A DNA stretch of 64,000 bases from Lentinula raphanica (lineage: Eukaryota > Basidiomycota > Agaricomycetes > Agaricales > Omphalotaceae): the NCBI GenBank assembly GCA_027919835.1, contig JANVFP010000011.1:558001-622000 (forward strand). The letters run 5' to 3'. Positions 17,186 to 56,754 of this stretch are shown here, piece after piece. The position numbers were made by a program, and so were the translations under genes. Position 1 is the stretch's first letter. Every line of letters begins with the position of its first letter. A model generated the notes under the pieces. It had not been told where the DNA came from. It saw only the letters and a list, made by a program, of their open reading frames with translations, and did no database searches.

Positions 17186-17229
17186 ATCTCCTGCTCTCTC
17201 TGAGCACCATCTTCATCTCAACAATCTAT

Positions 17230-18996: not shown

Positions 18997-19126
18997 ATCT
19001 CTGGCTGGTACAAAGCATTTATTGGATACATCTGAATCTACTTCTAATCCACGTTTTAGACGTGGTTATTTATGGTCTTCTACTAGTTCTTCTTGTAACA
19101 TCATTCCTCCCAGTATCACATCTACT

Positions 19127-34268: not shown

Positions 34269-34813
34269 CACTACGCCACCAGCCAGATATATCGGTTGAA
34301 AAAGGTATAGGGAAAGGGTTTACCAATTATTATATTTTGCAGTTCATTTTCGGCTCAAATAAAGTTGAATATCTCTTTTGGGATAGGATTTGAAAACAAT
34401 CACCTTTTCTAGTCAAAATCCCATATGGGTTTTGTTTTGGGAATATGTCACTTATTCCTGTACAAAAGAAACTCTTTTGCAACTATTATATCACATAAAT
34501 AAAGGATTGCATACTGCACCCTTTTCTGAACAATTATACTAAAGATAAAGGTTGCCTTTATCGGCCGAGTTTGGTTTCGGAATTCATTATTTGATTCGAG
34601 TAGAATTAATTAAAATATTTCTAGGAAAAACAAAACGGCCAATGAACGGGAGATGAGTGGGAGATGAGCAGAAGATGAGCGGGAAATGACCAGACGAGTG
34701 GCTCCCGATTGACTGGCTATGAGCTCGTTATAATCTTGCCCTCCTTGGGCAACACCGATTATGGGACTATAATCGGGCATGATCTTCCCAAACTCACAAA
34801 AAACTCATCACTT
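34269..34813 (+). repeat. CACTA left terminal inverted repeat
   Basis: 545 bp, inverse of 56210-56754, with about five substitutions and no indel seen. It contains a perfect small palindrome (CCGATTAT ... ATAATCGG) near 34755-34777 and a tandem decamer array at 34648-34690. Confidence 0.94.
34648..34690 (+). repeat. Subterminal tandem decamers (GGGAGATGAG-type) in the left TIR
   Basis: Four imperfect 10-bp units (GGGAGATGAG, TGGGAGATGAG, CAGAAGATGAG, CGGGAAATGAC) lie in a row, mirrored in the right TIR. Such arrays are typical binding sites for CACTA accessory or transposase proteins. Confidence 0.6.
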
Positions 34814-36215
34814 TTCAAATTGAGTCAACACCATACATTTTCAAGAGAGCTACAGCGTGAAGACAAAATAAATACTTGATTTGATACGCTGCTGGATTAC
34901 ATTGAATGCAAAAAGTACGATATGCAGAAAGGTAACACCGAATGCAATTCCCGCGAACCAACCCTCATACGCAAGGAAAGGATAATGGCAGTAGAGCCCG
35001 AAGACCGCACTGAGCCGAGGGCGGTTCGGACAGAGGGGTGTGTGCACAGTACAGAACCTAGCACGTATATCGATGAAAAGTGGTGCCAGTTCTGGCGCAC
35101 ACGGCGGACTCACTTCCGGAAGCCACCAAACAGCCCCGAATTTTTCCGAGAAGACAAGGAGCATAGGCTGGCAAGTTGGCGCTCGAAAAGGCCTTCGTGA
35201 AGAAAAGGAGGTGCGTCAGCCTGGATTGATTCGATGAGAAGAGACCGAGGAGGACGAGCGTAAGTTCAGCGAGAAGAAAAGTTGACACTCGAAAAGGCCT
35301 TCGTGAAGAGAAGAAGGTGCGTTGGCCTGCCGTTGATTCATTGAGATCTTTCGCAATGGAGCTAAGTTTTCGTGATAACACTGATCAATCAAAAAATCAG
35401 TTGCGAGCGGACAGATGAATCCGGAAAACCTTCATACATATACTATATTGTCCAGCAGCGATCCCGTCTGTGAGCAAAGCTCATCTCCATACAGCAAATA
35501 GTCCTTCAAGAGCTCTGTGAGCCCCATTACCCAATTAAAGCGAGGCTACGTACGACTTGAAAAAGGAATGAGCTTGAGTACTTCGTTTGCCAGAAAATCG
35601 GAGAAATAGCGAGAGTCGGAAACATGGCGGTCAGAAACAATACTAGGTTGAAGCCAAACAGAAAGGATTTTGGTAAAGGTCTTCACAGCCAGCAAAGCCT
35701 CGCCTAGATGAGAGGCTGGGCGTTTGCTAGCTGCCAGTAGTGAAGGTGGCTTCGAGACTTTGTTGGAACTTTGGAGAAAACGAGAGCTCGATGAATCGGA
35801 ATCACGAACTTCAGTTGTGATTGCGTAAGCCTTCGATTTCTCTCACGAATTCATGCGTGCATGCATGTTATGCATGTCCCTATACATCCCCGCCCATTGC
35901 GCTCGTTCCGTCCGATCTCCTTGTACTCACAAAGAGTCTTTCCTGGCGAATCTCGTACTATATTTCTTTGTATTTCCTTGGCAGCAAATAGATCAAAGGC
36001 GATCGATGTATTCTCAACTCCCCTTTGTGCTTCATCCTCGTGCACCGGATATCCCTTTCCCTTGTCTCCAAATTCTTAAAAGCAGCTTGCCCTTCGTTCC
36101 ATCCGAACTCATCCCCCTGCTATATCTGCCAATTCTTTCTGCCATTGCAATCCAAGTAATTCTCAAGTATGTGTAGGCTATAATCTTTGAACCATAGTCT
36201 AACCAAGCTTTTAGC
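34814..36215. other. Non-coding stretch inside the CACTA element, with one tandem duplication
   Basis: No convincing gene. At 35181-35345 a segment containing CTCGAAAAGGCCTTCGTGAAG is present twice, about 105 bp apart, with partial decay. The last 350 bp probably hold the promoter and 5' UTR of the RING gene; CATGCATG-type alternations occur near 35850-35875. Confidence 0.45.
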
Positions 36216-37166
36216 ATGCCTGCTACCTCCTCGTCTCGACAAATTACGGAAGCGCGTGCCTCAGCGACTAGCTCTCCTTACCGTAGCCGTCTCATCACCT
36301 ACAGCAAGAAGGACCAACGAACTAGGAGCCGTCGTACTTTGTCCGGTTCGAGTTCTGACGAGCCAATGCTCATCTCCGATAGCGACGACGATTTTCAGGT
36401 ATGCCACTTCAAGGTTCCACATCATCAGATACATGCTTATTTGTATTCTAGCTTGTCACAAAAGATACCGTTCCAAAGGGGAAGGGGAAGGGAAAAGCGA
36501 AGATGGCTACGCCAGAGATTCTTTCAGACGATGATGTTGTTTTTATTAGCGGTCCTGCCAAAGTAAGTGTTAGCCAGTAGTAAAAAAATGGCTTCTAATG
36601 TGTGCCCCTTAGGCAAGCTCTAGTCGTCTGTCGAACGTCCAAGAAAAGGACACCGGCAAAAATCAATCCCAGGTGCGCTTTCTGCTTAGGTTCTGCCCTT
36701 CCACCCAATTACTAAAGTGTACCATCATTCAGAACGTTTTCGAGCTGATGTTCACAGACTATTTGCGCAAACAAGAGGAGCATCTGAGCTGCTCTATCTG
36801 TATGGAAATTGTGAACAACCCGCATGTGTACGTCGTACTTATTCTCCCTTACAACGCTTACTGATATATGTTGCTAGCTTGTGGTGTGGCCATTTCTTCT
36901 GCGCCCAGTGCCTGACTGGACACGCTAAAGCTCTTGTCAAGAAACACGATAACCCTAGATGCCCTACTTGTCGCACGATTCACGGTCGTTTCAAACCCGC
37001 CGAATCATATGTTCTACGAGAGCAAACACATGATCTACGACAGGCCCTCTATCTTCCTCAGCCTGAACGCGGAACCTTAGTATGGCCCAATTCTTTCAAA
37101 CCTACCGAGAGCGATCGCGATGCACCTCTTCCATTTCGAATCCGTCCTACAGATACCTTGTATTGA
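36216..37166 (+). CDS. RING-finger protein, probable E3 ubiquitin ligase (CACTA cargo)
   Basis: Five exons: 36216-36398, 36453-36562, 36613-36672, 36733-36827 and 36878-37166. The first half is Ser/Arg-rich with acidic patches (SDSDDDF, LSDDDVVFISG). The second half has a C3HC4 RING: CSICMEIVNN, then CGHFFCAQCL, then CPTCR. RING domains of this spacing recruit ubiquitin-charged E2 enzymes. The acidic segments could be SUMO-interaction motifs, making a SUMO-targeted ligase possible, but this is inference. Exon 2 is one base short of keeping frame, at a G-rich run near 36478-36490, so a base is missing either in the genome or in the assembly. It is the first gene inside the left TIR. Confidence 0.75.
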
Positions 37167-37379
37167 CCTCATATAATACTGAATTCTCAAAGACTAGCTG
37201 CCAGCTCACTTATAGTCCTGAATATCTCAACAACACTTTAGTACCATATGCTTTGCTTTACCTTTCACACAACTACCTTACCTCTTAAACTCAACTTTGA
37301 ATCAAGCACAAGTCGTATCAATAAATTGTTCCTCTACATATCGATCTACAAGCATCCTTATCATCGGGAGTGACCACTA

Positions 37380-40300
37380 CTAATCAACCTGCATTGGATC
37401 CGTCTGAGAACCGCCCTCATTTGGCGTTGCGGAAGATCCCGCATCGTTTCGCGTTGCAGTGGGATCATATCCTTTGAAACTGACTCGTTGAAAAGGGTAT
37501 TCTGCCAGCTTAAGCTCCATCAGTTCGTGAGGGAAAAGAGGTGCAAGAAAATCTTCGCGAAAGAATTCTCGAGGGAGATCAGTTGGGGGAGACCTATGGC
37601 TGAGCTTGTTCGAACGGACCCTAGGAATGCGCCCAGCACCTGCTCGATGAAAGATCAACTTTTCGAGAGCAGGAGCTGTGTCCATGAGCTTGAATAGATC
37701 ATCAAGATCTGGATGGCGCCAATAAAGGTGAAGGACAACTTTGACGTTCTGCTTCACCTTGATACCTTCCACCTCCACTTCCCTAGTGTCATCTTCTTCA
37801 TCGGACATGCCGTTATCGCCCAGGATCTCCGTCACGTTGAGTCCATAAGACCAAAAGTCTACTCCAGACTGGTCTCCACGCTCTCGACAAACTCCAAGCA
37901 TGATTGTTGCCACGTCAGCACGGGATGTTCGCTTCTACATGGGGAGGAAGAAATTATTATAAGCCATATTTGAAAGAACAAAAACTTGGATTACGCACCA
38001 CATGAAGAATGCTCCTGTTGGCGCTACGCTTTTTCCGTTTGTCGTGACTCAAAGCAATACGCATAATTCGAGCCTCGTTAGTTTCGCCGGGCTTTGGGCG
38101 CGCCTCAATTATATCTTTGTAGATGCGGTAAAGTCGATCAGAGAACAACTTGTCCCACTCAATGGGTCCTTTTCCAAAGCGACCGTCTTTGCAACTGCTG
38201 GAAATTTCATGCGCTTTCAGGGCGAATTTGTGGGCTAGCGCGCGGTTCCAGGGAGACGCCTTCATTGACTTGACATCAGCAGCAAATTTGTCGATTCGTG
38301 TATTGCGGAGTTTTGGTGCATTTTCTATTGGATCCCGAATGAAATCTTCTATCTTCTCGAGTTTGATTCCATCTCGAGCAAATATTGCCCAAATGTACCG
38401 AACGTTGAAGGCTTCCTTGAACAAGTCTCGAGCGAGCGCCTGAATGACGAGTGAATCGAGCTGTGAAGGATTCAAAGACATCAGCACTCACATTGATAAC
38501 GTTTTTGACGGTCCTTTTGCCCGGTTTGCTTGGTCCCGAGTTCTGCCAACGTTTCTGCACCTGGCTAACATCACTGGGCTCGTCATCATTATCCAGAGGC
38601 ACCCTTGATTCTTCATCAGAACCATTATCGTCGTCATCATCAGACTCATTAGCTGAGGTTCTGTTCCTGCTTGCCGGACCAGTTTCTTTCTGCTTTCCTT
38701 TATCTCGGGTAGACTAGAAAGATATTGACTGTTTGGGCCTCGAGTGTCTTTCTTAGAATCACATTCACGTACCGGTCCTGGTTTACTGAAACTAGCAGCG
38801 CCCGAGCCATTATGACCTCCCTCAATGTCGCCGTCTTGATCTGAGTCATCGTCTAAGTAAGTATCGCGCCGTCTGTTTTCCTAAGAGAATTAGATTTGTC
38901 AGACGATTCACTTTCTACAAAACAGAGAGATTCAATTGTACCTCTGCAGCATAATTGGAACGCCGATCTTTATCCCATGGCTTCAAACGTTTCTTCGAAC
39001 CCTGAAGCAGTCATCAACATTGAGTCTTATGTGTTCCTTCTAGTACTCACATCGAGCCCGTTCGAAAAGTCGGGCAGTCGCCATTGTGGATAGTTCGCAC
39101 GGACACGGTTCAATTCTGCCTGTACTGGCGCTCTTGCTAGCGTACGGCCCAGACCTCCAACTGACCTGATATCATGTATAATGTCTCCGTTCAAAGGACG
39201 TGCAGTTGTAGAGCTGTTGGGAGTTGAAGTATCTTTTTGGGAATGAGAATTTGTCATCGGCGGCGATGGGTGTTGAGTGCTGTGAGTCGAAGCTGAGCCT
39301 GAACTTGAAGCTGAAGATGGAACAGCATTTGGTGTAGCTGATGCCCGAAGAGCCTGTATGAAGATGGCAGATAGGATGAGAAAAGAGGTTGGCCGACATA
39401 CCTGAATTTCGCGTTCTAGCCTCCGAATTTTAAGGCCTTTTTCGAGATTATCCTCTTGCAGAATAGCAACTTTTTCCGGAACAGGGATATCTGGAGCGTT
39501 CTTTGCGCCGGTCAGTGAAAAGTTTGCTATGTAACTGAAAGTGCTCGAACTTACTGCAGTGCGCTTATTCTGATGTCGATTGAGCAATAGACTTGTGACG
39601 ATAGAACACACACTTACTTTCAGATCTTTGATCAGAGTTTCCAGGGTTTCTTTTTCATCTTGAAGCTTCTTGATATCTTGAAGTTTCTCCCTCAGTTGAC
39701 GATTGAAGCCTTCTGATTCTTCGGAAGAGCCACGTTTGATAGCCTGCATATAGAATTGTGAGTTAGCAATAGTAAGAATAGTAAGTACAGTGCTTATGTG
39801 GGTGATAGTAGCTGACCTGAAGTTCCTCTTGCACTTTAGATAGTTCTCCTTTGGCGTCATTTAATTGTGATTCCGTGGTTTCATGAGTTTTCTAAATCAC
39901 GTTAGATTGAGCCATCGCTCGGATACAAATGAAGATACCTTTAAGCTTTCATATCGCCCAGACAAAACATCGAATCGTGGCTAGACATGACAAAATTAGC
40001 ATCTGATTGCGGTATAACTCATGAACGTTTACCCTTGCTATCCAGTTGTCTTCTTGAAGCGTCTGATCCACCCATAGCGCGTCAACATAAGAACATTAAC
40101 CAGAATCGAGTATGATTCAACCCGCCTTCAATTTGCTTATCTCATTCAGCAATTGGCTACTTTTCTGCTCTGCGTCGCGGCACAACTTGTCCTTCTCATC
40201 GGAAACACGTCGGTAGGTCTAGATACAACCGTTCAGTAAAAGAATCAAGGAAACATTAGCCGTTTTATGCGACCTGCAACTGGCCAACTGATTTCTCAAG

Positions 40301-43300
40301 TTCGTCTTGACGTTGCGCAGATTCTCTTTGCAGGATCTCCTTCTCCGTCTATGTATGATCGATCAGCGCAAAACGCCAAGAAATGACTAGCTTCACTAAC
40401 CTTCGAGTTTTCAACCAGTTTCTGAAGTTCATCTTGACGCTGCTTGAATTGTCGAAGCAAGGAGTCCTTTTCTGTAATGCTCTTCTGGGCAGTTTCCAGT
40501 TCGCCTTGACGTTGCGCTGCTTCTCTTTGCAGGATCTTCTTCTCCGTCTATGTTTGATCGATCAGCGCGAAACGCCAAGAAATGACTAGCTTCACTAACC
40601 TTCGAGTTTTCAACCAGTTTCTGAAGTTCATCTTGACGCTGCTTGAATTGTCGAAGCAAGGAGTCCTTTTCCGTAATGCTCTTCTGGGCAGTTTCCAGTT
40701 CGCCTTGACGTTGCGCTGCTTCTCTTTGCAGGATCTCCTTCTCCGTCTATGTATGATCGATCAGCGCGAAACGCCAAGAAATGACTACACTAACCTTCGA
40801 TTTTTCAACCAGTTTCTGAAGTTCATCTTGACGCTGCTTGAATTGTCGAAGCAAGGAGTCCTTTTCCGTAATGCTCTTCTGGGCAGTTTCCAGTTCGCCT
40901 TGACGTTGCGCTGCTTCTCTTTGCAGGATCTCCTTCTCCGTCTATGTATGATCGATCAGCGCGAAACGCCAAGAAATGACTCGGTTCACTAACGTTCGAT
41001 TTTTCAACCAATTTCTGAAGTTCATCTTGACGCTGCTTGAATTGTTGAAGCAAGGAGTCCTTTTCCGAAATGCTCTTCTGGGCAGTTTCCAGTTCGCTTG
41101 AGCCTTGAGCACGAATTCGCTCCAAGTCCTTGTCGTCGGTGTCCGACTTTCTCTGTGAACATAAAAATCTTGACGACAAATCGAATAGGAATGAACGTCG
41201 ATCTCATACCTGCAATTTTTCAATTCTCTCGTGTTGTTGAGTTATGTTCTCAGAAAGTTGGGCATTGATGCTGAGAGTGTCCTGAACCTGGTCTTGCAAA
41301 GTAGTGATTTTGTCCTGGAAGGACGTTCAAGATCAAAAAGGGAAACGTGTGATGATATAGTGCCGTATAAAAATCTTGACGACAAATCAAATAGGAATGA
41401 ACGTCGAGCTCATACCTGCAATTTTTCAATTCTCTCGTGTTGTTGAGTTATGTTCTCAGAAAGTTGTGCATTGATGCTGAGAGTGTCCTGAACCTGGTCT
41501 TGTAAAGTAGTGATTTCGTCCTGGAAGGACGTTCAAGATCAAAAAGGGAAACGTGTGATGATATAGTGCCGTACCTCAAAACCAGTAATCTCTCCCTTCC
41601 GCTGCTTTAGTTCTTCTACGAGCCGATTCTTTTCTTCTAACTCATCAGTTACCTGTTTCTGTAAGTCACGAGTTGTATTTTGTGAGACTGAATAATTCTC
41701 TTTCAGCGTCGAGACTTCCTTCTGCAGAAGCTCGTTTTGCGTCTGGCTTTCCTCGAGCTTGGTATTCTGATGGTTGGGTGATATCAGTAATGACACTATC
41801 AGACACGACGGAGGATCTATTTACGAGGTATACTTCATTTGCAACAGTAGAATCATCCAGAAGTTTTTGTAACTTGGCGATCTCTTCATCCTTCTGTTGC
41901 TACAGAGCAAAAATCGCCTCAAATATCTCTTCGCACGGAGATAAGAAGACGGCTTACAAGATGTGATTGATTTGCGCTGGTGGATTCGCAGAGTGTCTGT
42001 TGTACTTTCGCAAACTCCTCCTCTTTTCGCTGCTACAAGTTGACAGTCAATTTGATAACTTTGATAAGCCAATGGACGCTTAGGGACTCACAAATTGTGT
42101 TGCATTCAAGCGAGCATCGTCGTCCAGTCTGCGCTGCAGTTCTTCGAGTGCAACGTCCTTCTGCTGCTGAACACTAGAAATGAACATGAAGTAAGGATGA
42201 ACGTGGACTACCTCCTACCGAAGCAAGCTGGTAAGACTGTTCTTGCTTAGCCGAATCTTCCTCTAGCTGGTGATGCTTGAGCTAGTACATTGCGGAAGAT
42301 TCAGGTTAGTTGCCTTGAATATGAGAAGGAGTGACGAACCTGTAAGTTAGCGTAATCTTCCTTAAGTAGGCCGAGATCGCTCATTAACTGTGTATTGGCT
42401 TCCTCCAGTTTATTCTTTTCGGTATCTGCTTGTTCGGTGATCTGATTCATTTCCAGCTGCATCCCTTCGAGATCTTCAAACAATTCTGTCTTTGTTGCAC
42501 GAAGTTCCGAAGCTTCTTCTTCAACGCGTTTGAAATCAATCGAGAGCCGAGTGAGCTTGTCCTGTATTTCATTTTTCTCGCCCTCGATAGCCTTCTTCTC
42601 GTCCTCAATAGTGTTCTTCTCTCCCCCAACAACTATGATCCTCTGCTGCAAAGACGCATTTTCGGTTCGCAATTGCTCTAAGTCGCTAGAGAGTCGAGTA
42701 GCATTGGCATCAAGCTCCATCTTCTTCTCCTCGATGGCCTTCTTCTCGATATCATTAGCCGCAATGCTCTCCTGCAAAGAGGCGCGTTCATTTTGCAACT
42801 TCTCCTGAGAATTCTGAAGGAAACATCAAATAAATGGCCTGGATTGCTGCGGGGCATAATCACATTGCAAAGGACACTGACCTTTAAACTTTTGTTCGTG
42901 AGAGAGAGTGTTTCGTTGCATTGTTTCAGCGAGTTGACCTGGGTGGTAAGCTCGTGGCATTCTGCCTAGTGTTACAAGTAAATGGTGATTCAAGAGAGAA
43001 GCTCTCGAGACATACCTCTAATATTTCGATTGTTTTTTCCCTGTCCGCGATGGTTTTTTCGTACGTCTTTCCCCAGTAAATATAGAGCATTAGTACTATA
43101 ACAAGAAATCTGACTTAATTACCTACCTTTGTATTGTCAGACGAGCGTCCGACATTCTCTATCAATTTTGCCGGAGTGTTTCTCAAATTCGTTACATCCA
43201 ATTCGAGTTTCGCTACTTGAGCCTGCAATTTCGTGACGTTGGAAGACCCAACAGTGATATCCGCATTGAGCTGATGAATTCTTCGGTCCTTCTTCAAAAG

Positions 43301-43772
43301 CTCATCCTCGAGTTCGCCGATTCTGTCGTGTTCCTTTCGTTTACGAGGCGGGTTGAGTGAGCCAAATAAAGATGGAATACGGAAATTGGTGCTACTAGCT
43401 GCGGCCTCCGACTGTAGTTGGCACCTGAATGTTGTAACACTTCGAATGAATGATCCTACATACATCAATTTCCATACCCTGCAATAATGATTGAGCAGAA
43501 GCCATATCCTGAGGTAGGTGTAGGTTTAGAGCTAGAAAAATATGGATTATTACCCAAGGACATACCTTGTCACTTGATAATGAGCCGCGTATCGTTTGCA
43601 CTGAACTTTGCATTGATACATCTGACTTTGAAATGAGTATAGGATTAGTATTGAGAGTGTAAGCTTGAGATTCAAGGAGAACGATACATACACTGGACGC
43701 TATCATGATTCTATTAGTTGAGGTATAAATATCCATTGCGTTGTCGGTTTCCAACTCTCCTTCCGCTTCCAT
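37380..43772 (-). CDS. Very long coiled-coil protein with a C-terminal domain shared with the neighbouring gene
   Basis: The minus-strand, many-exon gene begins at ATG 43772 (MEAEGELETDNAMD) and ends at TAG 37382-37380. Exons between about 43500 and 39400 encode almost continuous heptad-like coiled coil (for example EEKNRLVEELKQRKGEI and LQQRIIVVGGEKNTIEDEK), including tandemly duplicated exons at 40291-41150. A Ser/Thr/Pro-rich linker and an acidic region follow. After a GTGAGT intron near 38495-38465 comes a globular C-terminal domain: LDSLVIQALARDLFKEAF, SPWNRALAHKFALKAHE, LFSDRLYRIYKDI, then ILGDNGMSDEEDD and REFFREDFLAPLFP. That domain matches the divergent gene at 44066-45073. Function unknown; the architecture suggests a filament- or scaffold-forming protein. 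Not all exon borders are resolved, but frames and GT-AG sites support one gene. Confidence 0.7.
40291..41150 (-). repeat. Tandem duplication of a coiled-coil exon with its intron (about 199 bp, about four copies)
   Basis: Landmark TATGTATGATCGATCAGCGC recurs near 40350, 40549, 40748 and 40943, that is at 199, 199 and 195 bp. Each unit carries one exon encoding LQKLVE ... ETAQKSI ... LLRQFKQRQDE and one short intron. Copies are highly similar, with the last more diverged. Confidence 0.88.
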
Positions 43773-44065
43773 GATGGCGGAACACAAAGAAAAAAAGTTA
43801 TTAAAACGTGTATAGGTGGGAAATTGCCCAGAGATCGGTCCGGAAACCGGAATGACTGTTCAGTAACTAGTGTTCAGAATCACCGGCACCGTTTTCAGTT
43901 CTAACCGCTTCAGTTTCGAAACCGAGTGAGTCTTGTATCAGCTCTCCGCCTCGACCACCCTGCTCATTTTCGTCTTCGGTCAGCTCATGTATGTGCTGAT
44001 CACGATCGATATTAAATCTTAATTGGCTAATTTTCTTTTCGCTGCTTTGTGTCAGGCCATACACC

Positions 44066-45073
44066 GATGCAGAAGTTCGCCGACATGCCAATGTTCGTAA
44101 ATCACTCAGCTTTGACTATTAACTAGGCCCACTCTGACCGCATACACCCAGCAACTTATACGAAAGTTGATCAAGGACTATCTACAGATCACCGACGATT
44201 GGCGAGATTTTACTGTCGCTGCTGAAGACCTGGGGTATTTTCTTGCAGATCCTCATTCTCATACTCCTGAACTCAAATCGGGCATGAAACTGGATACCAG
44301 TGCTTCGATGGCTGGCGATATGCGACGTTCTCCTTGGAATCAAACGACTGCCCTTGTTCTAGCTGCCAAAGCTTTACAGCTTGCCGCTGACAAGTCTGAT
44401 TATTACGGAGGCAAAACTGAACGCGAGTGGCAAGAACTGATCAACTCCCGGCTATACCGAATTTTCTTAGATGTTGCGAAGGCAAAACAAGGGACTCGGG
44501 ATCATGAGTATGAAGCAAAGAAACAGCAGAGCAGACAACGAAGGCTCCGGCAATACGTGCGTATCTTCCCATGTTTACTACAACCTTGGCTCATCAACAT
44601 ATATAATACTAAAAAAACAGACGTACGAACGCCGATTACAAATTGCTACCGCGATGATTACAACCATGGAGAATCTCGACAACGAGGAGGAGTACTTGCG
44701 CTGGTCTGAAATACTCTATTCCCTTGATCAGTTGGGCGTCGCTGGTACCTCTGACAGTGAAGAAGTACTGGATACTCAAGGGCGGCAGGGTGTGGTTGTT
44801 TATGAGCCAAACTTCCGACATGCCTGGTTCAGAACGCTCTTTCACGAAGTTGATAGAGTTCCTCAAACCGCGTCTTACTTGTTCCGCAAAGTGGGGCGCA
44901 AACGACTTCCCAGAATATGTGGAAATGAGCGGGTTGAGCGGGCACCTCCAGCAAACCTTCCTTCGTCCTACTACCGACCTGAGTATTTGGAGAAGATGAA
45001 GAAAGGCTTTACTCCAACAGTCAGTCCTACGAATACAGATCGACCACTACCCAGGTCTGTTAACTCGATTTGA
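44066..45073 (+). CDS. Relative of the C-terminal domain of the long coiled-coil protein
   Basis: The main coding part runs from about 44128 (LTAYTQQLIRKLIKDYLQI) to TGA 45071-45073, with an intron 44557-44620. The 5' end is uncertain; ATG 44066 with an intron ending near 44127 is one option, but the phase could not be settled. The protein matches the end of the gene at 37380-43772: SPWN, a LINSRLYRIFLDV counterpart of LFSDRLYRIYKDI, LGVAGTSDSEE versus LGDNGMSDEE, and LPSSYYRPEYL versus LPREFFREDFL. I remember similar proteins with a GMSSDE-type motif as numerous in Agaricomycetes, without an assigned function. The two genes are head to head, separated by fewer than 400 bp. Confidence 0.7.
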
Positions 45074-45408
45074 TCATCATTTCAACTACAACTCATCATA
45101 GTCACAGTCTTCCGAATCTCGGAATGTTACTCGCTGTTCATGAAGAACATAACACACCGGCTTAGACTCGTTTATACTCGAAATCTTGGTTAGTGAAATT
45201 CAGGTGTCATTATTTGTCTGAGCAAATGAAGATTAGAGATTATCTACATCATCTATGGTATACTTAGGCGAATACAAATCTTTATAGAAACGTATACATA
45301 GGACGGAAGTGGCGACGGTTAACAATCGGATTGAGCTTTTCCGTGAGTCTGATAAGTAAGCACTGTGAGTTAGAAATCGTCATCAACAGTGGTTAGACAT
45401 GCATCAAC

Positions 45409-45890: not shown

Positions 45891-46093
45891 CGTGGCAGAC
45901 AGTGTTAGAGACTGGGTTGAGTGGCAAAGGATATGCGTAGGAGGGAACTGGGATGTGAAGGCCTTGCGATGAGTCCGAATCTTTTATACCGTGAGTTTGA
46001 AAGGGCCCCTTTGTGCGATGAATGATTTGACGTGTCCTTTGTATTTCCAGCTCTATACTTCACCTTCCTTAACTCCTTTCTTTTTTCCTACCA

Positions 46094-48037
46094 TGTCTTT
46101 TAGACGAGGACCGAGCCTGGTCAGCGATTATGCGGTACGGTGAACTCCATGACCTTACCATTTCCAGCATTGACTGTACGAACAGAAAGCTCGTCGAATT
46201 GCTCAATTATCCCGACAAGTAAATGATCTTCAAAAAGAGTTGAACGCGAAGGACCAAGAACTAACCTGGCGAGACCAGCAACTGTCTCTGAAAGACCAAC
46301 AGTTGAATGATGCAGAAACGGAGCTAGATGAATTGATGGTGAGTTTCCCCATCTACGGACGCTATCTATCACTCTTTCTTTCTCTTCTCGTAGAACTCCG
46401 AATCTCAGCGAATCCAAGCTCTCGAAAACGAAAGAAGACAAAACTATATCGACAAGACTCAAGCGGAGATTAAGGCAGAGAGATATCAACGTCGTCTCAA
46501 ACACTCCGAGATCCAGGTAGAAGAATTGCAGCGATCACTGACCGAAACGTCTTGTGGCAAGTCCGAAGTGGAACTGAGAGCAGAAAAACTACAGCACCGT
46601 GTCGAAGAGCTCGAGGCGAACATAAAGGAACTTCAACGTCGCTCGATGGCGGAGAAATGCAAGAGTGGCACTGAGCCAATGCCTGTCATACCTGCCAACG
46701 AAGTAATCTTTACAGGTAGCGGTAGCGCGGAACAAGTGTGTTTCGCCTACTTTCTCGTTAATCTGGTCTCGCTCATCTAGTCCAAGTCTCATACAGCAGT
46801 CTCTGAAAACACGCCACTCGGAATCTTCCAGTCGATAGCAGATAGCGCAACAATTCCTACTGAAGCCAAGGTAAACGTTTCCACATATGCTTCTTGTCGC
46901 ACTCACTGATCGTTCTATCTCCCTCTCTCTTCTGTTCAGCTCCTTCCTTACGTTGAAAGCGATTTGCAGTCGACAGATGTCCGTTCGATACCCGCTGGAA
47001 TCTTCCAAACGATGGAACGTGGTGCAATAACTACTCAACTCGAGGTATTTATTTCCTTGAAGCCTGCCTCTCAGTTACACGCGCTCATCCCACCATCCTT
47101 TACTCAGCTGTCTCCTGATCCTGAAGATATTTTGCAGTCGACATTTTCGCTCTCGCTCTCTCAACTCCTTCCTGATTATGACGGAAATATCGCTCATTCG
47201 GTACCCTTTGAAAACGCTCAGACAATGGAACGTAGTGCATCATCTACGGCTCAACTCGAGGTATCCATTTCCTCATTTCCCTTCTGGTGACCTGTCCTCA
47301 TTTCTCTCATTCGTTGAGATCCTTCCCTATAACGAAGCAAGTTCGCAGTGGATTGTTCCTCGTTCAACTATGCTCGGGAACTCCCAGATATGGGAACATA
47401 GTGCGAGTACTACCACTCAACCCGGGGTATGTTTCCTCGTCTTCATCCCAGTCACTTGTGCTCATGCCCGCACTCATACCCTCAGCCCCTTCTCTATCCT
47501 GAAGATGCCCTGCAATCAACGATCGCTCGTTCTTGGTTCCCTGCTGCATTCGATTACGTCAATGTGGATCTGGGCGAAGATTTCACTTGTACCCTTCAGA
47601 GTTGGATTCAACTGGAGCGCATGAAAGACTGGGTATCGTCCCAAAAAGGAATCGGATGTAAGAACCGCCCTAAGGAACTCACTCGCTGGATTACGAATGG
47701 AAGGTACGATCGACGCGGAAATGAACCTCGATTTGAAAGGGATGAATTGGCGAATTTTGGGAAAGCGTTCGTAAATTGGTGGACCAGCTTGAAGCAAACG
47801 ACTTCCGAGCCCAAAAGAGGAGGTTCGGGCAGAAGAGGGAATGGATGGGGCACGCTCAACACGAGCGGGAAGAATGGATGGTTTAGTATCATTGTTTGCC
47901 TCAAATGGTGGGGGATGGGACTTGGAGAGCACAGACAGCAAGTTCTAGGCAATGATTGGCATCAATCAGTCAATGAAGTACGCATTACCTTGAACGACCT
48001 CATTGACTTTGTTGCAAGCTCAGCAAAGAGTCACTAA
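46094..48037 (+). CDS. Coiled-coil protein with a Trp-rich C-terminal domain (CACTA cargo)
   Basis: Multi-exon gene from ATG 46094 (MSFRRGPSLVSDYA) to TAA at 48037. The N-terminal third is coiled coil (QVNDLQKELNAKDQELTWRD, then EEVEELEAN-type heptads up to about 46660). A variable middle contains three or four related short exons, each with a PYxE / IPxxIFQTMERGA-like or MERSASSTAQLE segment. The C-terminal 150 residues form a distinct domain: TRWITNGRYDRRG, FGKAFVNWWTSL, GWGTLNTSGKNGWFSI and LKWWGMGL. The Trp spacing of this last domain is familiar from uncharacterised Agaricomycete proteins that also end near a coiled coil. Function unknown. Some middle exon borders are approximate. Confidence 0.7.
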
Positions 48038-48125
48038 TTGTATCTGCTGTAATGTGTATGTTGAATGCGCCTTAATCGATAATTCCTTGAACGATAGCTA
48101 TTGACGCAAGCACGAATCCTTCTCG

Positions 48126-51100
48126 ATGAAAGTAAGTCAATTTTGCTCCAATAATCGGGAGATGATCGGCCCGAACACAGAGCTTTCTTGCACTACGACC
48201 ACGAGTCCACGACTGTCCACGAAGTTGCCTTCGAATGTCATGTCATCTTACCAAGATCTTTTGGAAGGACTTAAGCATGAAAAGCCATCAGCATCCTCCA
48301 TCTCAGCGTATCGAGACCTCTTGACCAAGTTTGAAGATACACGATCGTCTACTCCAACCTCTCTTCAACCCAAAATACCATGGTCCAACGATCTGAAGGG
48401 AAATACAGCCTCCCAATATCAGAGCTTACTGGCTGGATCATCGGAATCGGAATCTTCGGACTATGATTTAAGGGTTATGGCTGCGGGGCTATCATCAAAC
48501 AGGCTACACGATACAACCCGAAACCCCTCTTTGGAAACATCGTTTGAGAAGTTTCAGGCCGAGATCACCAAAGAAACTGTGAGTTTGTTATTTGCACGCC
48601 TAGGGTGTTCACGACGCTAAGATACTCTCAGGTGAGAAGTATGTTGAATAGCGCGAGCGAGGTCAACTCGGCGGAAAAAGACTCACTCGAGTCATTACTC
48701 GTACCCGGTTCCGACGGTCGCCTGCAGCTCGGTGCATCTAAGAGGAATGTCAAAACAACACGAGCGTTGGTCACAGTGTCGAGTCTTAAAGATGTTGCTC
48801 TCGATTTACAACACAGACTACGAAATCTCTCCTTCTCCCAACCTCCGGCAGATATACAGTGTGTTCTTGGCATTGTAGAAGATAGTGCCGAAACGCTTCG
48901 CTCTCAGGCTCAATCTATTGGAAATGTTGGAGCCTCCGAAAAAGCTGCGGAGGTTCTGGGAATCTTAGATTCCATGGAGGAATCGGTTCGACTATGGAGG
49001 CAGGAATATCCAGATACTACCCCAGTGAAGATTGACAACAGTGAGCTTCTATTGAAATGGTTGCACTTATGATCTGGGTACTCAAGATGAGATACAGGAA
49101 AATACTTCGTGAATCCTGGTGATGATAAGAACACTCCGACCCTTATTGCATACTGCCTCGCTCTAGTTTCGCGCGTCTTCGAACAGACCGCACAGCGGGG
49201 AGCTACCTTCGTACTCAAGATGATGAAGATGTTCGGCTACTCCCTCGCCACCTTAGGTGGGAGAAGCCTGAACGCTCAGCAGGAAGCCGCGCTTGCCTCG
49301 ATTCCGGAGTCCATTGAAAGATTAGAGAAGAAATTCAATCTTGATATCGAAGGCGTTCCTTATGCTGTATGCCCTGAATGCAGTTGCACATATTCCCCTT
49401 CTTATCCAAACGGCTCTTCGTCCCCCACATATCCCAGCACTTGTTTGGAAAAAAAGGCTCGTTCAGCACCACCCTGTGGTGCATCGCTCCTGTCGTATGG
49501 CAAACCCATCAAAGTCTTCGAGTACTATCCTTTTTTTGACTGGTTTGGAAAGTTTATCGCACTTCCTGGAATTGAAGAGTACGGAGATAGGTTCTGCGAT
49601 GCTATCGATAGCCATGAAACGGTCCCTGTCAACAAAGTCAGTGCTGCAGATGGTCGGTTCGTCTTCGAATTTCGCGGAGCAGATGACCGTTTATTTGTCC
49701 GAGATCGCCAAGACGAAGGACGATGGTTCTTCATCCTCAACGCTGATTTTTTCAATGTGGAAGGGAACCGCATTCGTGGAAAGGCATCCTCTACTGGTAT
49801 GCTAGCGATGACCTGTCTGAATCTCCCTTTGGAGATCAGAAACGACCACGCCTACATTTACATCCCCGGCATCATCCAAGGTCCCCAAGAACCTAAAGCA
49901 GAAGATGCTGAACACCGACATTACCTCAAACCACTCATTGATGATCTATTGGTGGGATACACACGCGGAGTCCGGCCTTATGCTACTCATCGCACTCAAG
50001 GGGACAGCTCCTTTTACGGCCGCGTATTTCGATTTTGTCTCGCTGCAATCATCATGGACTTCAAAGCTGCACGACCTCACCTGGGCCTTTTAGACATAAC
50101 CTCACATCACACCTGCTGTGGTTGTGATTGTTGGCATACATCCTGTTTGGGCCGGACTGACTACGAGAATTGGAGACGGATGGATGACGAATTTCTGAGG
50201 AAGGGCGCAAAGCTATGGCGAAATGTTGAAGATGTCAAAGACCGGGGGCCTATCGAAGATCTTTATGGCACCCGTGACTCGGCGCTGTGGCGCCTCCCTT
50301 ATTGGAAACCGTCGAGTCAATGTATTGTCGATCCCATGCACACAATATTCCTCATTCTCCTTCAACGCTACTTTCGAGATATCCTCGGGCTGGATAATCC
50401 TGATGACTCTAACAGGAAGCCCAAGAAACCACGGTTCAAATTCGCATTCTATCACAGTTTCGTACCTCCTCCACCTTTGATGTCTCTTGCAACAAACGGC
50501 CAAGGAGGAAAACGAGGTGTTTGGGCCAAGATCGGATATCAATCTCAACCCACAGATGAGAACTCACTGTCGCTCCTTGAATGGCCGCTCCTCGATAAAG
50601 AAGCCCATGCGTGCCGTCTTACCAGGCTTCAAGCATTACAGGTTGAAATCGAAAAGGATAGGCGTGCTCTGCAAGCGGTCTTCACCATATTGAATGAGCT
50701 GTCAGACAAAATGCCCGAGGCGGAGACAGATGTGAAGAAATGGTTTTCAAGAGTCCAAAAGCACAGATGGAGTGCACTTCTTTTTGTCTGTGATAACCTT
50801 GCGCTATTCTCTGGCCATGGACAACCTAACCTTCAGACCGCTCAACAAATATCCATGAAAGACATCAACAAGAGTGAGCTCGCCAATCTGCTATTGAACT
50901 GGGTGCGTTTCCTCTTCCTGTCATTGTATCACCACGTAACAATTGCTTTCAGCGTCTTCATGGTATTCAGGAAACTCAACGTTTCATTTGGCCTTACTTT
51001 ACGCCCATCAACAAAGAATTCCCAGTTACTCCATGGGCTCCCCCTGATCCTCCCACCGGTGATGATCATTCCAACACAGACTACCGACATCTCACACCTA

Positions 51101-52698
51101 AGGAACGTCAGGAACTCATGGAGGATCTCGCTGGCTCTATGAACTATCACTCTGCAGCTAGTATCGGTAACATCCATCGTCTTCTTCAGCAGCCTTTGAT
51201 ACGAGGTCAAGAAGATGATCTGCGTAATGCCCTTATGCATTCAAGTGGGGACGCACTAGCCTACGTCTGTACAGATATTCAGCGACTCCCGGCGCATCGA
51301 TTTGCCAAAGATGACATGGTGAATCAGCTAATTATATGGGTGCGTATGCCCTTTTGCCATAAAAGTTACTGAATTCTCAATACCTCACAGAGATTGGAAA
51401 AACCCCTTGACCCAATGGTTGCTCTGAAGGTGGACTCCTCCGCCCTTCTCAAACGAATTCAGAAGATAGTGCGTGAAGCAATAACGCCTTCATGGATGGC
51501 AAACCCGCCTGCAGATGTGGGACTTGCAAAAGCAGGAACACTAAAGGCCGATCACTGGCGTAGGCTGTTCGCCGTTCATGTACCATTGGCTGTCCTGAGT
51601 CTGTGGCGAGAGAGTTCTCCGTTGGCCTCTCCTGATGCTCAGCGTATGACTTCTGTGGTGGAGACCACGATGTACCTGAGTTGCGCCTCCTTAGTCATGA
51701 CCAAGCGTAGTCTCAGTTTGGAACGGCGCAATCTTTTCCGTCGCCTTCTCCGTCTGCATGTTCTTGGACTCAGGCAAGACTTCCCGGGATGGATTTTCCC
51801 TAGCCACCATCTCGCTTTTCACATTTTCGATGGCATGGAAAATTTCGGTGGTGTCAGGAATTGCTGGGGTTTTCCTTTCGAGCTGACGATTGGAAAGCTT
51901 CAACGTATTCCTAATAACCACATATCGGGTACGTCACTGGATCCTCTCGGCATTGAACTTTTGCAAACAGTTTTCTTAGGTCAATTCGAACGGACAATGC
52001 TTCATTCATTTTGCAAAGGCGCCACCTTCCGTCAATGGCTTATGCGGTCTGACGCTCCGCCGATTCTCCGTTACTGCCTCGAACTTGTGGATACCGCTTA
52101 CAACTACCGTCGTACACCGAACGTCCCTTCGAACACTCCTTCGACCGCTCCTTTTGATTCTTCATCTACAGTGGATGTTGCCGATACGCTTGAATCTGTA
52201 TCACTTACAACTGCATTTGTTGGCTATAATCTTGGTTCACCAGACTCAAAACATAAAATTCCCTCCCCTCCTATTCTCACAAAGCTTCTGGGACAAGAAC
52301 CGTTTGAATGCTATTCTCGAGTTCCTGGATCAAAAGGGGATTACACTATTCCAAAGCAGGGTGCATTAGGGAACAGTTATATTTGCTTTCAATCTCAAGG
52401 CAGATATCAACCTGGACAGCGATGGAAGGCCGGTCAAATTCAACATATCTTTAGGCGAACCCCCTCCGGTCCACTTCAAGTCACTATCCATAGCAGTCAG
52501 GCTTCCCATGTAGCTCAGCCGTTCTCCGATTTCTTTGAACATGGTTTTGAAGCTGCTTTGTTTTCGACGGAGTTTTCGGGCGATCTTGAAGTGTTGAATT
52601 TCGACCAGATCGCTGCGCACAGTGCTCGGTGGAACCTCAGCGATGATTTAGTGGCAGTTGTCAACTTGAGTATGGTCAGTGATTCAAAACGAACATAA
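48126..52698 (+). CDS. Tnp2/Plavaka-like CACTA transposase
   Basis: Large spliced gene on the plus strand. The N-terminal exons (48126-49043) are Ser-rich and helical. The core (about 49098-50900) carries VCPECSCTY (Cys pair), FEYYPFFDWFGKFIALPG, ILNADFFNVEGNRIRGK, TCLNLPLEIR, HHTCCGCDCWHTSCLGRTDYENW and VDPMHTIFLILLQ, all in the order of fungal Tnp2/Plavaka transposases. Two introns follow (about 50901-50951 and 51339-51390). The C-terminal part contains FGGVRNCWGFPFELTIGKLQRI, ending at TAA 52698. It should bind the subterminal repeats and cut at the CACTA ends. I see no internal stop, so it could be active. The exact start is uncertain because GTAAGT overlaps the ATG at 48126; ATG 48162 or an upstream exon are alternatives. 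Confidence 0.88.
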
Positions 52699-52878
52699 AA
52701 ACGTTGCATTTCTGAGTAATCTCCTTAGGATTGATATTCGGTATGAGGTCGGACGCTGACATAGATGCTTGTACGTGCGCAATAGTATTGAAATGTAGTT
52801 GGTTTGACAAGAGGGACATCAATTGAGCACATCAACTACATTTATAGAGCTAGAGCATATAACAAAGGAAATGAAGAC

Positions 52879-53828
52879 TTATTTGTTTCGAGAGCTGCGC
52901 GTACGAGCGGGAGAAGCAGTTTCGGTGGCAGGACGAGCTTCTGCTGCTATCTTCTCCAGCCTCTCTTTCTTGAGAACAGTTTTACGATATTTTAAGTGAT
53001 TACGAATGAAATCATCGATCACCCAGAGACCGCGGTATTCCTTCAGAAAGTCGAATTTTTCGACTGCCTGCAATTCATGTGGTCAACATTGGGAGTGATA
53101 CAGTGAGCTAAACAGAACGTACTTGAATCCGGACCTTCTTCACGCTTTCCAACCCCTGGTCACTCATTGGAGCAGTGCAATCTAGGTGTTTCTCGACAAG
53201 TTCATTGATGAAGAGCTACAACAGCATTAATTCAAAGCCTACGTGCAGGAAATAGTCAAAGAACATACCTTGACCTTGTCATACTTCTTCTTGGGCCAGC
53301 CAAGAACAGGGTACAGGGAGTATCCTCCGCGGTTTGGCCTTCCTACCTCACCAGGAGGCTTAGGTATTAAAAGATCGTCCTCGGAATCTTCCTCAAAGAC
53401 AAGAGCAGGTGGACCGCGTTCGCGTTTCGGTGATCGAGAGGAAGTGCTCTCCACGCCAGTGACCTGCACATTGCCACTGGTATGGAGTGGGTTGCTATCG
53501 ACGTGAGCAGATGACCTTCGCATTGGTTTAATGCTATTCGATGGGCGGTGAGTGGTTGGGGCACTGCGTTCGATATCGCTGTCAAACTCTGGTGAAGGTT
53601 GATGAGGGCCAAAGCGAGGCAAGTGTGCGCGTTCGTGACTGGAGTCGTATTCGAATTCACTATTGAAACTAGGCAGAGAACGAAGGGATGAAGTGCGCAG
53701 AGACACAGCTGGAGGAGTGCGACGATGTCGAGGAGGGCTAGGTGAAACGCGATAAGACTCTCTTTGGGTACGCTGAGGACCAGATGAAGGCGAGACACTC
53801 GTTGCATCGGCCAGAGTGGGAAAGCGCA
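52879..53828 (-). CDS. Uncharacterised protein with an IPKPPGEVGRP motif (CACTA cargo)
   Basis: Three minus-strand exons: 53828-53269, about 53216-53123 and 53070-52879. From ATG 53828 (MRFPTLADATSVSPS) comes a long disordered Ser/Pro/Arg-rich region, an acidic patch (FEEDSEDDLLIPKP), then the conserved part: PPGEVGRPNRGGYSLYPVLGW, KVKLFINELVEKHLD, KVRIQAVEKFDFLKEY, GLWVIDDFIRNHLKYRK. A basic tail follows. An upstream in-frame ATG at 53997 is possible, but the extension looks non-coding. I remember this conserved part as recurrent in Agaricomycete genomes, without a name or function. The helical DDFIRNHLKY end could contact DNA or protein. The gene is divergent from the one at 54179. Confidence 0.7.
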
Positions 53829-54178
53829 TCTCTTCGTGGTCAGAGCAGAGAGGGCGAAGATCGAAGTTGGTGTAGATGTTCATGAGGGAAACGAGGAGTT
53901 GGAACTTGGAATGCATGACATTGGAATATATAAGGAACGACTGCCCTTTGAGAGTCATTTGCGTTGTTAAAACAAGGGTGAACGTTGAAAGGCTCATTCC
54001 TAAACGGAGTATGATCGGGAGAAGAATGTACGGACTTGTACGGACCGGACCGGTTCTTTGTCTGTCGAAAAAAACAAACCCAGAACAAACCCTTCTTTCT
54101 TTTTTCTTTATCCTTGAACGGTTCTAACATAATCTTTCATATTCTTAAGTCGCTTCCACTCAAGAAATTCGCCGGATT

Positions 54179-56035
54179 ATGCACTCTGAATATCACCAAC
54201 TCTCCAGGTTGACAGGTCCACGAGACGCTGTTCTTTCTCTTGCCTTTTCAGCTAAGGCGAAATTCTTGTCCGCTGCAGGTATGTCTTCTTGGTCTCTATT
54301 CTGCCGCTCCTTGACACTCACATCCTTCTCAGGCTACAGTGGGGTTTTTGTGTGGGACTTGTCTACTTCTACATCAGTATCGACGCCTCTTCCTCATATG
54401 TTGTTCGCCCCACAAAACCCGAGATATGTCATAACCGCCTCGGCTTGGATTTATTTTCAAAAAACGAAACGGCACGTTCTAATCATAGGCTCTATGAGAG
54501 GTGATGTTCTGCTGTGGGAGTGGACTGAGGAAACCAAAGTACGTTCATTCATTCTGTATGATCTTTCGCCGAACTGACGCTAGTATGAAGGCCTTCAACC
54601 TTCTCTACAGAGTTACTCCCATAAACGACTCTCCGGACGAGATCTTGTCGATCGATGTACATGAACAAGATGTCGCGTCAGGTCGAATAGGAAGAGTCGT
54701 TGCTTCGACCGCCAATCGCCTTGTTAGCGTGTGGACTTTAACTTCCTCTGGAGAGTTCTCTAAAGTATTTACTATCACCCTGGACGACACCCTGAAACCA
54801 AAAACCGTACGTATGTGCAAGACGACGCGGGACATTTTTGTCTTTCCATTATATGGCGGCGAAATGTAAGCTGCCTGCTCTCAGCATATTCTTGTCTACT
54901 CATTTCTAACATTATCATTTCTCCAGCATCCGGCTGGACTACAAAACAGGTTCAGTGAAGAGCCGTAAATCTCCTGCTCCTGGAAGAATGTGAGTTTAGA
55001 ACAACGTTCGCGGCTCTTTGATGGATCTTTGATTTCCTAGGGGTTCGGTCGCGTTGAACCATGCAAGCGATCAATTTGTCGCCTATACTGGGAAGAACTT
55101 CCAACTATATCGTCTCGGTAACTTGGAAATACTGAAGAACTTCACCGCTGAAGCCCCTGCAGTTCTCTACCCTAAGCAAGTCGTGTTCGGGGAGTCAGAG
55201 CGAGTTATAGTCGGAGGGACTGATCGTGGTTGCGCTCTTGTATACGATGTAGAAAGCGAGAGAATTATACAATCGCTTAGATATCCAGCTGGATCTCTTG
55301 TTCAACCGGTATCGGTATGTCTTGTTTCCTTCTCTCTGTGTCGAGTTCGCTGACGAGTCTGATAGACTTGCACCCTTCCAGGGCGACATTTAGTTGCCAT
55401 TGCAGGTTCTACTCAAGAACAGCCCGCAGATGTCGTCCTCTTTGAAAAGCTCGTTGCTCAGGCCGCTACTCAATCCTCTCTTTCATCTTCAGAAGATCCT
55501 GATGTTATCAATACCGTCGATACGCCTGGTCTCAATGACCAGCCTGTGCTCATTGGTTTCTACATCCCCAAGAGAGTTTGGAAACGGTTATGGATCGCCT
55601 CTTCACTTCTCTGCCTATGCATGGCGTTGTATCTGGCAGTCCCTAACAATCTAGCTCAGGTGAGTCTTTCTTCACTTTTCTCCTGCATCTTGGATCCTGA
55701 GCATATATTCACAGATCTCCACTTCTTTTTGGCATAGCGCTTCTCAGTTGGCAACCGAGTCCAAAAATCCGATTAATAAACCGCCGTCCGCTTTCAAACC
55801 TCAGGAGCCGTACGTCATACAAACAACGGTGTATATTGAGAGAGCTGCTCTGGAGACTCCGAATACTGTTCACAAGAAGGCCTATATTGAACGAAGTTCT
55901 TCGGATGGTCCGGATGCCGTTCAGAAAAAGGTTTCTGCCAAAGGAATGTACAAAGATGGCAGTGGCTGGAAGGGGCAGGCGCATGTTAGCCAAAATGGTT
56001 TGCAAGAAATTGTTAGGCAAGTAGGTGGAGCTTAG
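54179..56035 (+). CDS. WD40-like protein with one C-terminal membrane segment (CACTA cargo)
   Basis: Multi-exon plus-strand gene from ATG 54179 (MHSEYHQLSRLTGPRDAVL) to TAG 56033-56035. Clear exon ends are 54278, 54333-54538 and a continuation from about 54596. WD40-type repeats are visible: AVLSLAFSAKAKFLSAAG ... GVFVWDL, VLIIGSMRGDVLLWEW, RLVSVWTL, QLYRLGNLEIL, VIVGGTDRGCALVYDV. Near the end, KRVWKRLWIASSLLCLCMAL forms a basic-flanked single membrane helix, followed by a lumenal or cytosolic tail with two YIER motifs. A beta-propeller plus tail anchor suggests a membrane-bound scaffold. Similarity to Sec12-type WD40 membrane proteins is superficial and not claimed. Confidence 0.7.
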
Positions 56036-56209
56036 ATTTGCATTCGTAGTGTACTCCTGCGTAAATGTGCTTTTGGGCCTCGTAGTAATGTGTTTCGAGA
56101 CGTGAATCGATCCAGTCCTACTGTAAAAATCGGAGAAAGTGCAAGTCGGCCGTTGGGACCAAATCGGGGTATGATCCGTGCGCAATTAGTAAGGCTCAAC
56201 GCTTTCAAG

Positions 56210-56754
56210 AAGTGATGAGTTTTTTATGAGTTTGGGAAGATCATGCCCGATTATAGTCCCATAATCGGTGTTGCCCAAGGAGGGCAAGATTATAACGAGC
56301 TCATAGCCAGTCAATCGGGAGCCACTCGTCTGGTCATTTCCCGCTCATCTTCTGCTCATCTCCCACTCATCTCCTGTTCATTGGCCGTTTTGTTTTTCCT
56401 AGAAATATTTTAATTAATTCTACTCGAATCAAATAATGAATTCCGAAACCAAACTCAGCCGATAAAGGCAACCTTTATCTTTAGTGTAATTGTTCAGAAA
56501 AGGGTGCATTATGCAATCCTTTATTTATGTGATATAATAGTTGCAAAAGAGTTTCTTTTGTACAGGAATAAGTGACATATTCCCAAAACAAAACCCATAT
56601 GGGATTTTGACTAGAAAAGGTGATTGTTTTCAAATCCTATCCCAAAAGAGATATTCAACTTTATTTGAGCCGAAAATGAACTGCAAAATATAATAATTGG
56701 TAAACCCTTTCCCTATACCTTTTTCAACCGATATATCTGGCTGGTGGCGTAGTG
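56210..56754 (-). repeat. CACTA right terminal inverted repeat
   Basis: Inverse of 34269-34813, ending GGCGTAGTG and followed by the CTA duplication at 56755-56757. Confidence 0.94.

Follow-up and report, generated by a model that had tools for sequence, protein, structure and literature searches.

CACTA (EnSpm) elements usually carry one or two open reading frames (ORFs), as stated in PMC6431247, which also cites enlarged EnSpm elements of 16-20 kb with 4-5 ORFs from Chondrus crispus (Kojima 2013), and a putative autonomous CACTA insertion of 20.5 kb has been reported in soybean (PMC2613891). As set out in PMC12730594, EnSpm and its relatives share a signature of C(2)C and H(3-4)H motifs, EnSpm being marked by CAC..GTG ends and 3-bp target-site duplications (TSDs), and the related Plavaka transposase group, found in various Agaricomycotina, ends in TGT..ACA or CATCA..TGATG. 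Starships, which are classified by a tyrosine recombinase and carry diverse cargo, have been reported as tyrosine-recombinase elements in the basidiomycete Tremella fuciformis (PMC13066641). A literature search, which covered listed titles and the beginnings of abstracts and did not extend to most subscription journals or to the Repbase reports, brought up no account of Agaricomycete CACTA elements with many genes. The present analysis concerns a CACTA (EnSpm) element, designated E11, in the shiitake relative Lentinula raphanica. It was found in a window of 64,000 nucleotides (contig JANVFP010000011.1, positions 558,001 to 622,000; hereafter contig C11 of the 49.06-Mb assembly), where it occupies window positions 34269-56754 and measures 22,486 bp, with 11.5 of its 22.5 kb being coding. 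E11 is quite probably an apparently autonomous CACTA/EnSpm transposon belonging to a giant-element clade of mushroom-forming fungi with a gene set of its own, namely a transposase, a RING protein, two proteins with a common domain (the S domain, shared by genes B and D), a WD40-membrane protein and the proteins I, G and E, to which E11 adds two coiled-coil genes.

The element starts with CACTACGCC and finishes with GGCGTAGTG. Comparison of its two arms placed a left terminal inverted repeat (TIR) at 34269-34813 (+ strand, first letters CACTACGCCACCAG) and a right TIR at 56210-56754 (- strand, last letters GGCGTAGTG), each of 545 nt and 99% complementary, with 5 differences. The ends read CACTACG..CGTAGTG, and thus have the CAC..GTG termini of EnSpm inside inverted repeats, and the 3-bp TSD typical of EnSpm was present on both sides as CTA, at 34266-34268 and identically at 56755-56757. 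The CACTA termini, near-identical 545-bp repeats and CTA duplication proposed in a first-pass annotation of the window were therefore borne out by arm alignment and by the flanks, and its description of a giant CACTA element was upheld by the TIRs, the TSD and the further full-length copies described below. Confidence is high that E11 is structurally a CACTA/EnSpm cut-and-paste DNA transposon.

A search of the genome with the E11 TIR recovered three further full-length elements, E24 (C24:20958-43508, 22,551 bp, TSD TGA), E17 (C17:277843-307924, 30,082 bp, TSD TTA) and E28 (C28:550958-572834, 21,877 bp, TSD CTA). That this TIR family bounds three other elements, each with a TSD of its own, shows the ends of E11 to be no coincidence. 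The other copies that the first-pass annotation had proposed to look for were thus found and, rather than a TIR confined to this locus with single-copy conserved genes, which it had named as the case against it, there were three more TIR-bounded copies and the genes were multi-copy. The 16-base end motif, searched with up to one mismatch, matched the 49-Mb genome 10 times, each time exactly, and eight of these matches were the ends of the four elements; the motif read backwards, used as a control, gave four. The remaining two matches are terminal on contigs C46 and C58 and repeat the left edge of E24: both contigs stop within the same left TIR with the flank as in E24 (99.6% over 2.8 kb) and are 99.8% alike, and their ends are likely unresolved haplotypes or assembly overlaps. 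The four elements were collinear throughout, with pairwise nucleotide identities of 69-77% over aligned bases. The extra length of E17 is due to two nested insertions at about element positions 17062-20184 and 24150-28178, one within its transposase gene and one within gene J. The flanks of a 55.7-kb element on contig C36 also carry a relative of the first insert (95% over 1.1 kb), there as two inverted copies of about 1 kb.

Gene models were built from splice sites and from the conservation of coding sequence across the four elements. Ten genes, A to J, were modelled in E11, nine of them besides the transposase, which exceeds the at least seven non-transposase genes noted earlier. Gene A (36216-37166, + strand, 5 exons) encodes a RING-finger protein of 245 amino acids (Pfam zf-RING_UBOX, 1.6e-8). 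Gene B (37377-40088, - strand, about 581 amino acids, first exons uncertain) combines a coiled-coil-like N-terminus with an S domain containing an SPWN motif and is 69-73% identical in amino acids to its counterparts in the three other elements; gene D (43987-45073, + strand, 298 amino acids, 5' exons uncertain) is a second S-domain protein, with 74-76% identity across the same comparisons. The two are paralogous, being 28% identical across an aligned stretch of 287 residues (E 9e-23 in one direction and 3e-28 in the other). Gene H (48240-52734, + strand, 8 exons) encodes the CACTA transposase of 1372 amino acids, and gene J (54179-56024, + strand) a WD40-like protein that has a single hydrophobic segment close to the C-terminus, identified by weak Pfam matches to WD40/beta-propeller families and by a hydropathy peak of 1.9-2.1 in all four copies. 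The remaining modelled genes are E (45282-45890, - strand, 161 amino acids, 73-81% identical in the three elements), G (47429-48037, + strand, 180 amino acids, 63-70%, with at least 35 matching genome rows) and I (52879-53883, - strand, 261 amino acids, 73-77%), and the two that by appearance are coiled coils, the short F (46093-46838, + strand, about 153 amino acids, 64-72%) and the long C (41204-43772, - strand). Gene C was poorly resolved: its model retains only 41607-42462, barely exceeds the score of the model, and aligns with the other three elements over stretches of 42-134 amino acids only. Tandem direct repeats were observed at 40192-41084 (period about 199 bp, four copies) and 41161-41572 (206 bp, two copies, 98%), and these are perhaps repeated exons in the gene C region. 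No Pfam family matched D, E, G or I at E ≤ 1; structure prediction gave unusable models for an S-domain protein and G (mean predicted local distance difference test (pLDDT) scores of 42 and 44, respectively), and the best profile match of the S domain among solved structures (E 0.35) was taken as chance. Among the gene types named in the earlier reading, the RING assignment stood, WD40 was reduced to a weak Pfam match, and the transposase scored below the Pfam cut-off for Transposase_21.

That last score was 20.2 bits for the main exon of H and 18.8 bits for the whole protein, against a cut-off of 28.6. Its homologues P0029, P0034, P0058, P0062 and P0063 nevertheless carry precomputed PF02992 assignments, and some homologues are named as Tnp2 family. 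In an alignment of 25 sequences, comprising E11, E24, E28 and 22 of 59 homologues, the conserved residues of H were D466, D570, C589xxC592, H1120xxxH1124 and E1144, each shared by 95% or more of the rows having a residue at the position (22-25 of 25 rows), and the choice of catalytic acidic residues in H is a prediction. The arrangement is that of the CMCT group of fungal EnSpm transposases, in which the C(2)C and H(3-4)H motifs fall between the second D and the last E of a DDE triad. The 59 homologues (E ≤ 0.001) came from Lentinula, Dendrothele, Gymnopus, Tetrapyrgos, Schizophyllum and Antrodiella. Three of the gene models from Lentinula (P0007, P0008 and P0017) have a RING protein fused ahead of the transposase, and a RING gene therefore seems to adjoin the transposase gene in those cases.

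Gene content and gene order were identical in all four elements, with ten genes in each. Nine E11 genes matched each other element by blastp, with H and J of E17 split by its inserts, and the RING gene was modelled in E24 and E17 and found in E28 by tblastn and genome search. The comparison of gene order between copies that the first-pass annotation had suggested revealed no variation in the presumed cargo. The ratio of nonsynonymous to synonymous substitution rates (dN/dS; Nei-Gojobori, against E11) fell within 0.07-0.27 for each of the ten genes, in E24, E17 and E28 alike, at synonymous divergences (dS) of 0.27-1.67, and by these ratios all ten genes look to have been maintained by selection while the copies diverged.

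The genome was further searched with the transposase, S (B and D), W (J), I, G, E and RING proteins, leaving C and F aside; these searches score the best candidates only, so that all locus counts are lower bounds. Loci within 30 kb of a transposase made up 34 of 49 for S, 27 of 32 for W, 23 of 31 for I, 25 of 34 for G and 12 of 15 for E, the 30-kb neighbourhoods of transposases covering 4.8% of the genome. This tally was made from hand-entered rows, about one per gene and place (transposase 47/47, D 66/66, B 53/83, J 32/94, I 31/65, G 34/35 and E 15/16), and the rows omitted were further exons or pieces at places already listed. When transposase loci were divided at 39% identity, a boundary set after inspection of the data, at least two of the five accessory families lay within 25 kb of 26 of the 27 nearer loci, and at least three within 25 kb of 20 of them, whereas none of the 15 more distant loci had two and 14 had none. 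Extending the distance to 40 kb left the nearer class at 26 of 27 and raised the distant class to two of 15, and those two (on C14 and C28) adjoin an element already counted. The 25-kb tally used hand-entered coordinates for 42 transposase loci from 47 rows, five of which were taken as further pieces, and omits five lone G loci (C1:1800 kb, C13:1315 kb, C35 and two on C50), which leaves it unaffected. All 37 RING rows, judged by eye, fell on contigs bearing such elements or gene clusters. Gene order varied between families, with I and W often remaining neighbours. Because gene content is fixed in the four copies, dN/dS is low and the accessory families lie mostly near transposases of the clade, the accessory genes look like the element's own gene set and not like stray passengers; that they serve as its machinery is considered probable.

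The outer flanks of four larger clusters were also read for TIRs, gene content being known there from search coordinates only. An element of 37,439 bp on C22 had TIRs of 532 bp (81% alike), ends CACTGCGG..CCGCAGTG and the TSD AGG. One of 55,693 bp on C36 had TIRs of 438 bp (93%), ends CACTGGAAGG..CCTTCCAGTG and the TSD ACT, and a third, of 61,462 bp on C21, had TIRs of 473 bp (85%) of the C36 family, ends CACTGG..CCAGTG and the TSD GAA. These three elements represent two further TIR families with CAC...GTG ends and exact 3-bp duplications, and contain the same gene families in differing orders; nested insertions inside them may add to their length. In other fungi, lists of 59 transposase and 50 WD40 homologues contained eight cases in which one of each lay on contigs of equal size, each size occurring once within either list. 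These pairs came from Lentinula species and Dendrothele bispora and included contigs of 19.6, 31.6, 61.9 and 67.5 kb. Seven of the eight had the same species name, and the 61.9-kb pair was labelled Lentinula aff. detonsa in one list and L. boryana in the other, the WD40 entry there representing a two-contig cluster. The Dendrothele bispora transposase (K435DRAFT_688521) and WD40 protein (K435DRAFT_688530) have locus numbers nine apart. With equal size read as the same contig, the transposase and WD40 genes seem to be located on common contigs in these fungi.

The copies in L. raphanica also differed in how closely they resembled one another from segment to segment. The left and right TIRs were 99% alike within E11 and 98% within E28, compared with 68% in E24 and 66% in E17, and the left TIR of E17 was of the E28 type (87%) and its right TIR of the E11 type (82%). 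Around window 37-39 kb, E24, E17 and E28 were mutually 84-90% alike and E11 was 68-74% identical to them, whereas at 52-57 kb E11 and E24 were 79-87% alike. These TIR types and switches of partner indicate that the copies exchange segments by mosaic recombination, terminal repeats included, and the giant CACTA clade is best read as diversifying by recombination.

The gene that E11 interrupts, within one of its introns, is a DUF6698 gene (Pfam E 3.5e-44). Removal of the element and one CTA leaves an intron of 57 bp, GTAAGT...CAG, with alternative acceptors giving 45 or 68 bp; 57 bp is a usual intron size among these fungi. Splice reconstruction and Pfam placed an exon 5' of the interrupted intron at 34110-34227 (+ strand, 5' edge approximate), and the same evidence together with alignment to C8 and C39 placed the 3' exons at 56774-57400 (+ strand, extent approximate). 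Uninterrupted DUF6698 relatives on C8 and C39 aligned across the site at 81-82%, with a single CTA and an adjoining 6-base gap. These are relatives and not alleles of the interrupted gene, because the ankyrin-gene DNA beside the host gene matches only C11. The clean insertion into an intron of another gene claimed earlier was in this way confirmed, both by restoration of the intron and by the empty-site relatives. To the right of the DUF6698 gene is an ankyrin-repeat gene (58387-59739; Pfam Ank_2, 2.3e-36), and immediately to the left of the DUF6698 gene is a hAT C-terminal dimerisation domain (33148-33384; Pfam 4.4e-6), likely the remnant of a different transposon.

Several observations weigh against the interpretation of E11 as an autonomous element with its own gene set. 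No transposition event has been observed for E11, and a search with the adjoining ankyrin-gene DNA found no second haplotype of the site in the assembly for a presence/absence comparison. E17 is broken by its two nested inserts, and the cluster at C28:480-548 kb had no TIRs within the 16 kb read. The dN/dS values were computed on gene models chosen partly by coding conservation, and purifying selection would fit genes of use to the host as well. The accessory functions are backed by two domain matches, a clear one for RING and a weak one for WD40. The 27 nearer transposase loci are partly non-independent, as they include near-identical pairs on C53/C57 and C54/C59, and two of them are short fragments (C44 and C27:682 kb). 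Some loci (five of G, two of W and one each of I and S) stand alone, and at least six accessory clusters have no detected transposase (C1:188-209, C7:786-789, C17:1105-1138, C33:65, C47:300 and C68:8 kb); the latter are possibly decayed or non-autonomous elements.

The reading put forward in the first-pass annotation was that of a cargo-carrying transposon, a possible basidiomycete counterpart of Starships. In its full form, the additional genes would be captured host genes benefiting the host. The presence of many non-transposase genes in one mobile unit and the existence of elements of up to 61 kb are consistent with it. However, gene content was constant in the four copies, at low dN/dS, the same accessory families were clustered with other transposases of the clade, including those of two other TIR families, few accessory loci stood alone, and Pfam assigned neither a tyrosine recombinase nor any enzyme of metabolism or resistance to the ten gene models. 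The cargo reading was therefore set aside on the grounds of fixed gene content, clade-wide linkage and the lack of a tyrosine recombinase among the gene models, and is regarded as unlikely. Furthermore, since Starships have been reported in Tremella fuciformis, a basidiomycete counterpart of Starships already exists.

It was also considered that E11 might be a virus-like or viral hybrid, comparable to Teratorn and the Polintons. The accessory genes would then be viral remnants that had become linked to a CACTA transposase, and such a unit might pass from cell to cell. A multi-gene core, varying gene order and mosaic recombination are typical of mobile genomes, and gene B weakly matched Replitron_HUH (E 0.026; 15.3 bits against a cut-off of 28.5). 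No polymerase, integrase, protease or capsid family reached the cut-off among the Pfam matches, however, and IMG/VR scans with the S and WD40 alignments, pattern-based and of limited reach, confirmed no relative, making a viral origin very unlikely. Least probable of all is that an ordinary small CACTA element once enclosed a block of host genes and was then duplicated with functionless passengers, for although CACTA elements can enclose foreign DNA and the gene set is missing from the 25 kb around the 15 distant transposase loci (entirely so at 14), the dN/dS of 0.07-0.27 in all ten genes and the recurrence of the same families, differently ordered, in other TIR families argue against a single passive capture.

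A working scheme can be proposed. The transposase H would bind the TIRs, excise the element and reinsert it with a 3-bp stagger in the manner of DDE enzymes, and the accessory proteins would serve the element, most likely in the expression and movement of a very long transposon against host silencing of such elements. Binding of element DNA or of the transposase might fall to the S, G, E and I proteins, a part played by TNPA in plant En/Spm, where an accessory protein binds short subterminal repeats, and the RING and WD40 proteins might act on host silencing or repair factors via ubiquitin. TET/JBP genes have been proposed to let fungal transposons evade silencing (PMC12730594), and it is by analogy with this proposal that an anti-silencing role is suggested for RING and WD40; such a role in particular is a tentative idea and rather doubtful. 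In a broader form of the interpretation, favoured by a narrow margin of confidence, an undescribed clade of elements in Agaricomycetes, 22 to about 61 kb long, would act as a mobile genome with up to seven core gene families (transposase, S, WD40-membrane, RING, I, G and, in the closer families only, E), reordering them between families and exchanging segments and TIRs between copies; several of these proteins would be needed for its own propagation.

If the interpretation of E11 is correct, multi-gene mobile units in fungi are not confined to tyrosine-recombinase Starships, since units with at least six extra gene families and lengths of up to 61 kb would exist beside them; and, if the mobile-genome form is correct, this would be the most gene-rich self-serving fungal DDE transposon known to us. 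Several unannotated protein families of mushrooms would gain a place to belong, and many of the "hypothetical" and "WD40-repeat-containing" proteins of Lentinula and its relatives are probably transposon genes. The question raised, which can be tested, is why a transposon needs a RING protein and a WD40-membrane protein.

Set against the described systems, E11 resembles Starships as a large fungal mobile unit with many genes, and differs from them in its DDE-type transposase, long TIRs and fixed gene set. The ten gene models had no Pfam match to a tyrosine recombinase, the Starship captain, the DNA itself not having been searched with a captain model, and, in place of the accessory variation from copy to copy seen in Starships, the four copies were identical in their set of ten genes. 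Polintons/Mavericks are characterised by a DNA polymerase B and a retroviral-type integrase, and the E11 gene models had no Pfam match to either. The ends CACTACG..CGTAGTG also separate E11 from Plavaka. The soybean CACTA insertion, a plant element compared here by length alone, is near E11 in size. The enlarged EnSpm elements of Chondrus crispus, as cited in PMC6431247, are closest in kind, but belong to a red alga and are smaller, with fewer genes. Finally, E11 shares with the fungal EnSpm/CACTA CMCT group, as characterised by Kojima 2025 (PMC12730594), its CAC..GTG ends, 3-bp duplications and C(2)C and H(3-4)H motifs; no Pfam match to the TET/JBP dioxygenase of TET-bearing fungal transposons occurred in its ten gene models, and it differs from that group in having ten genes in 22.5 kb and relatives that extend to 61 kb.

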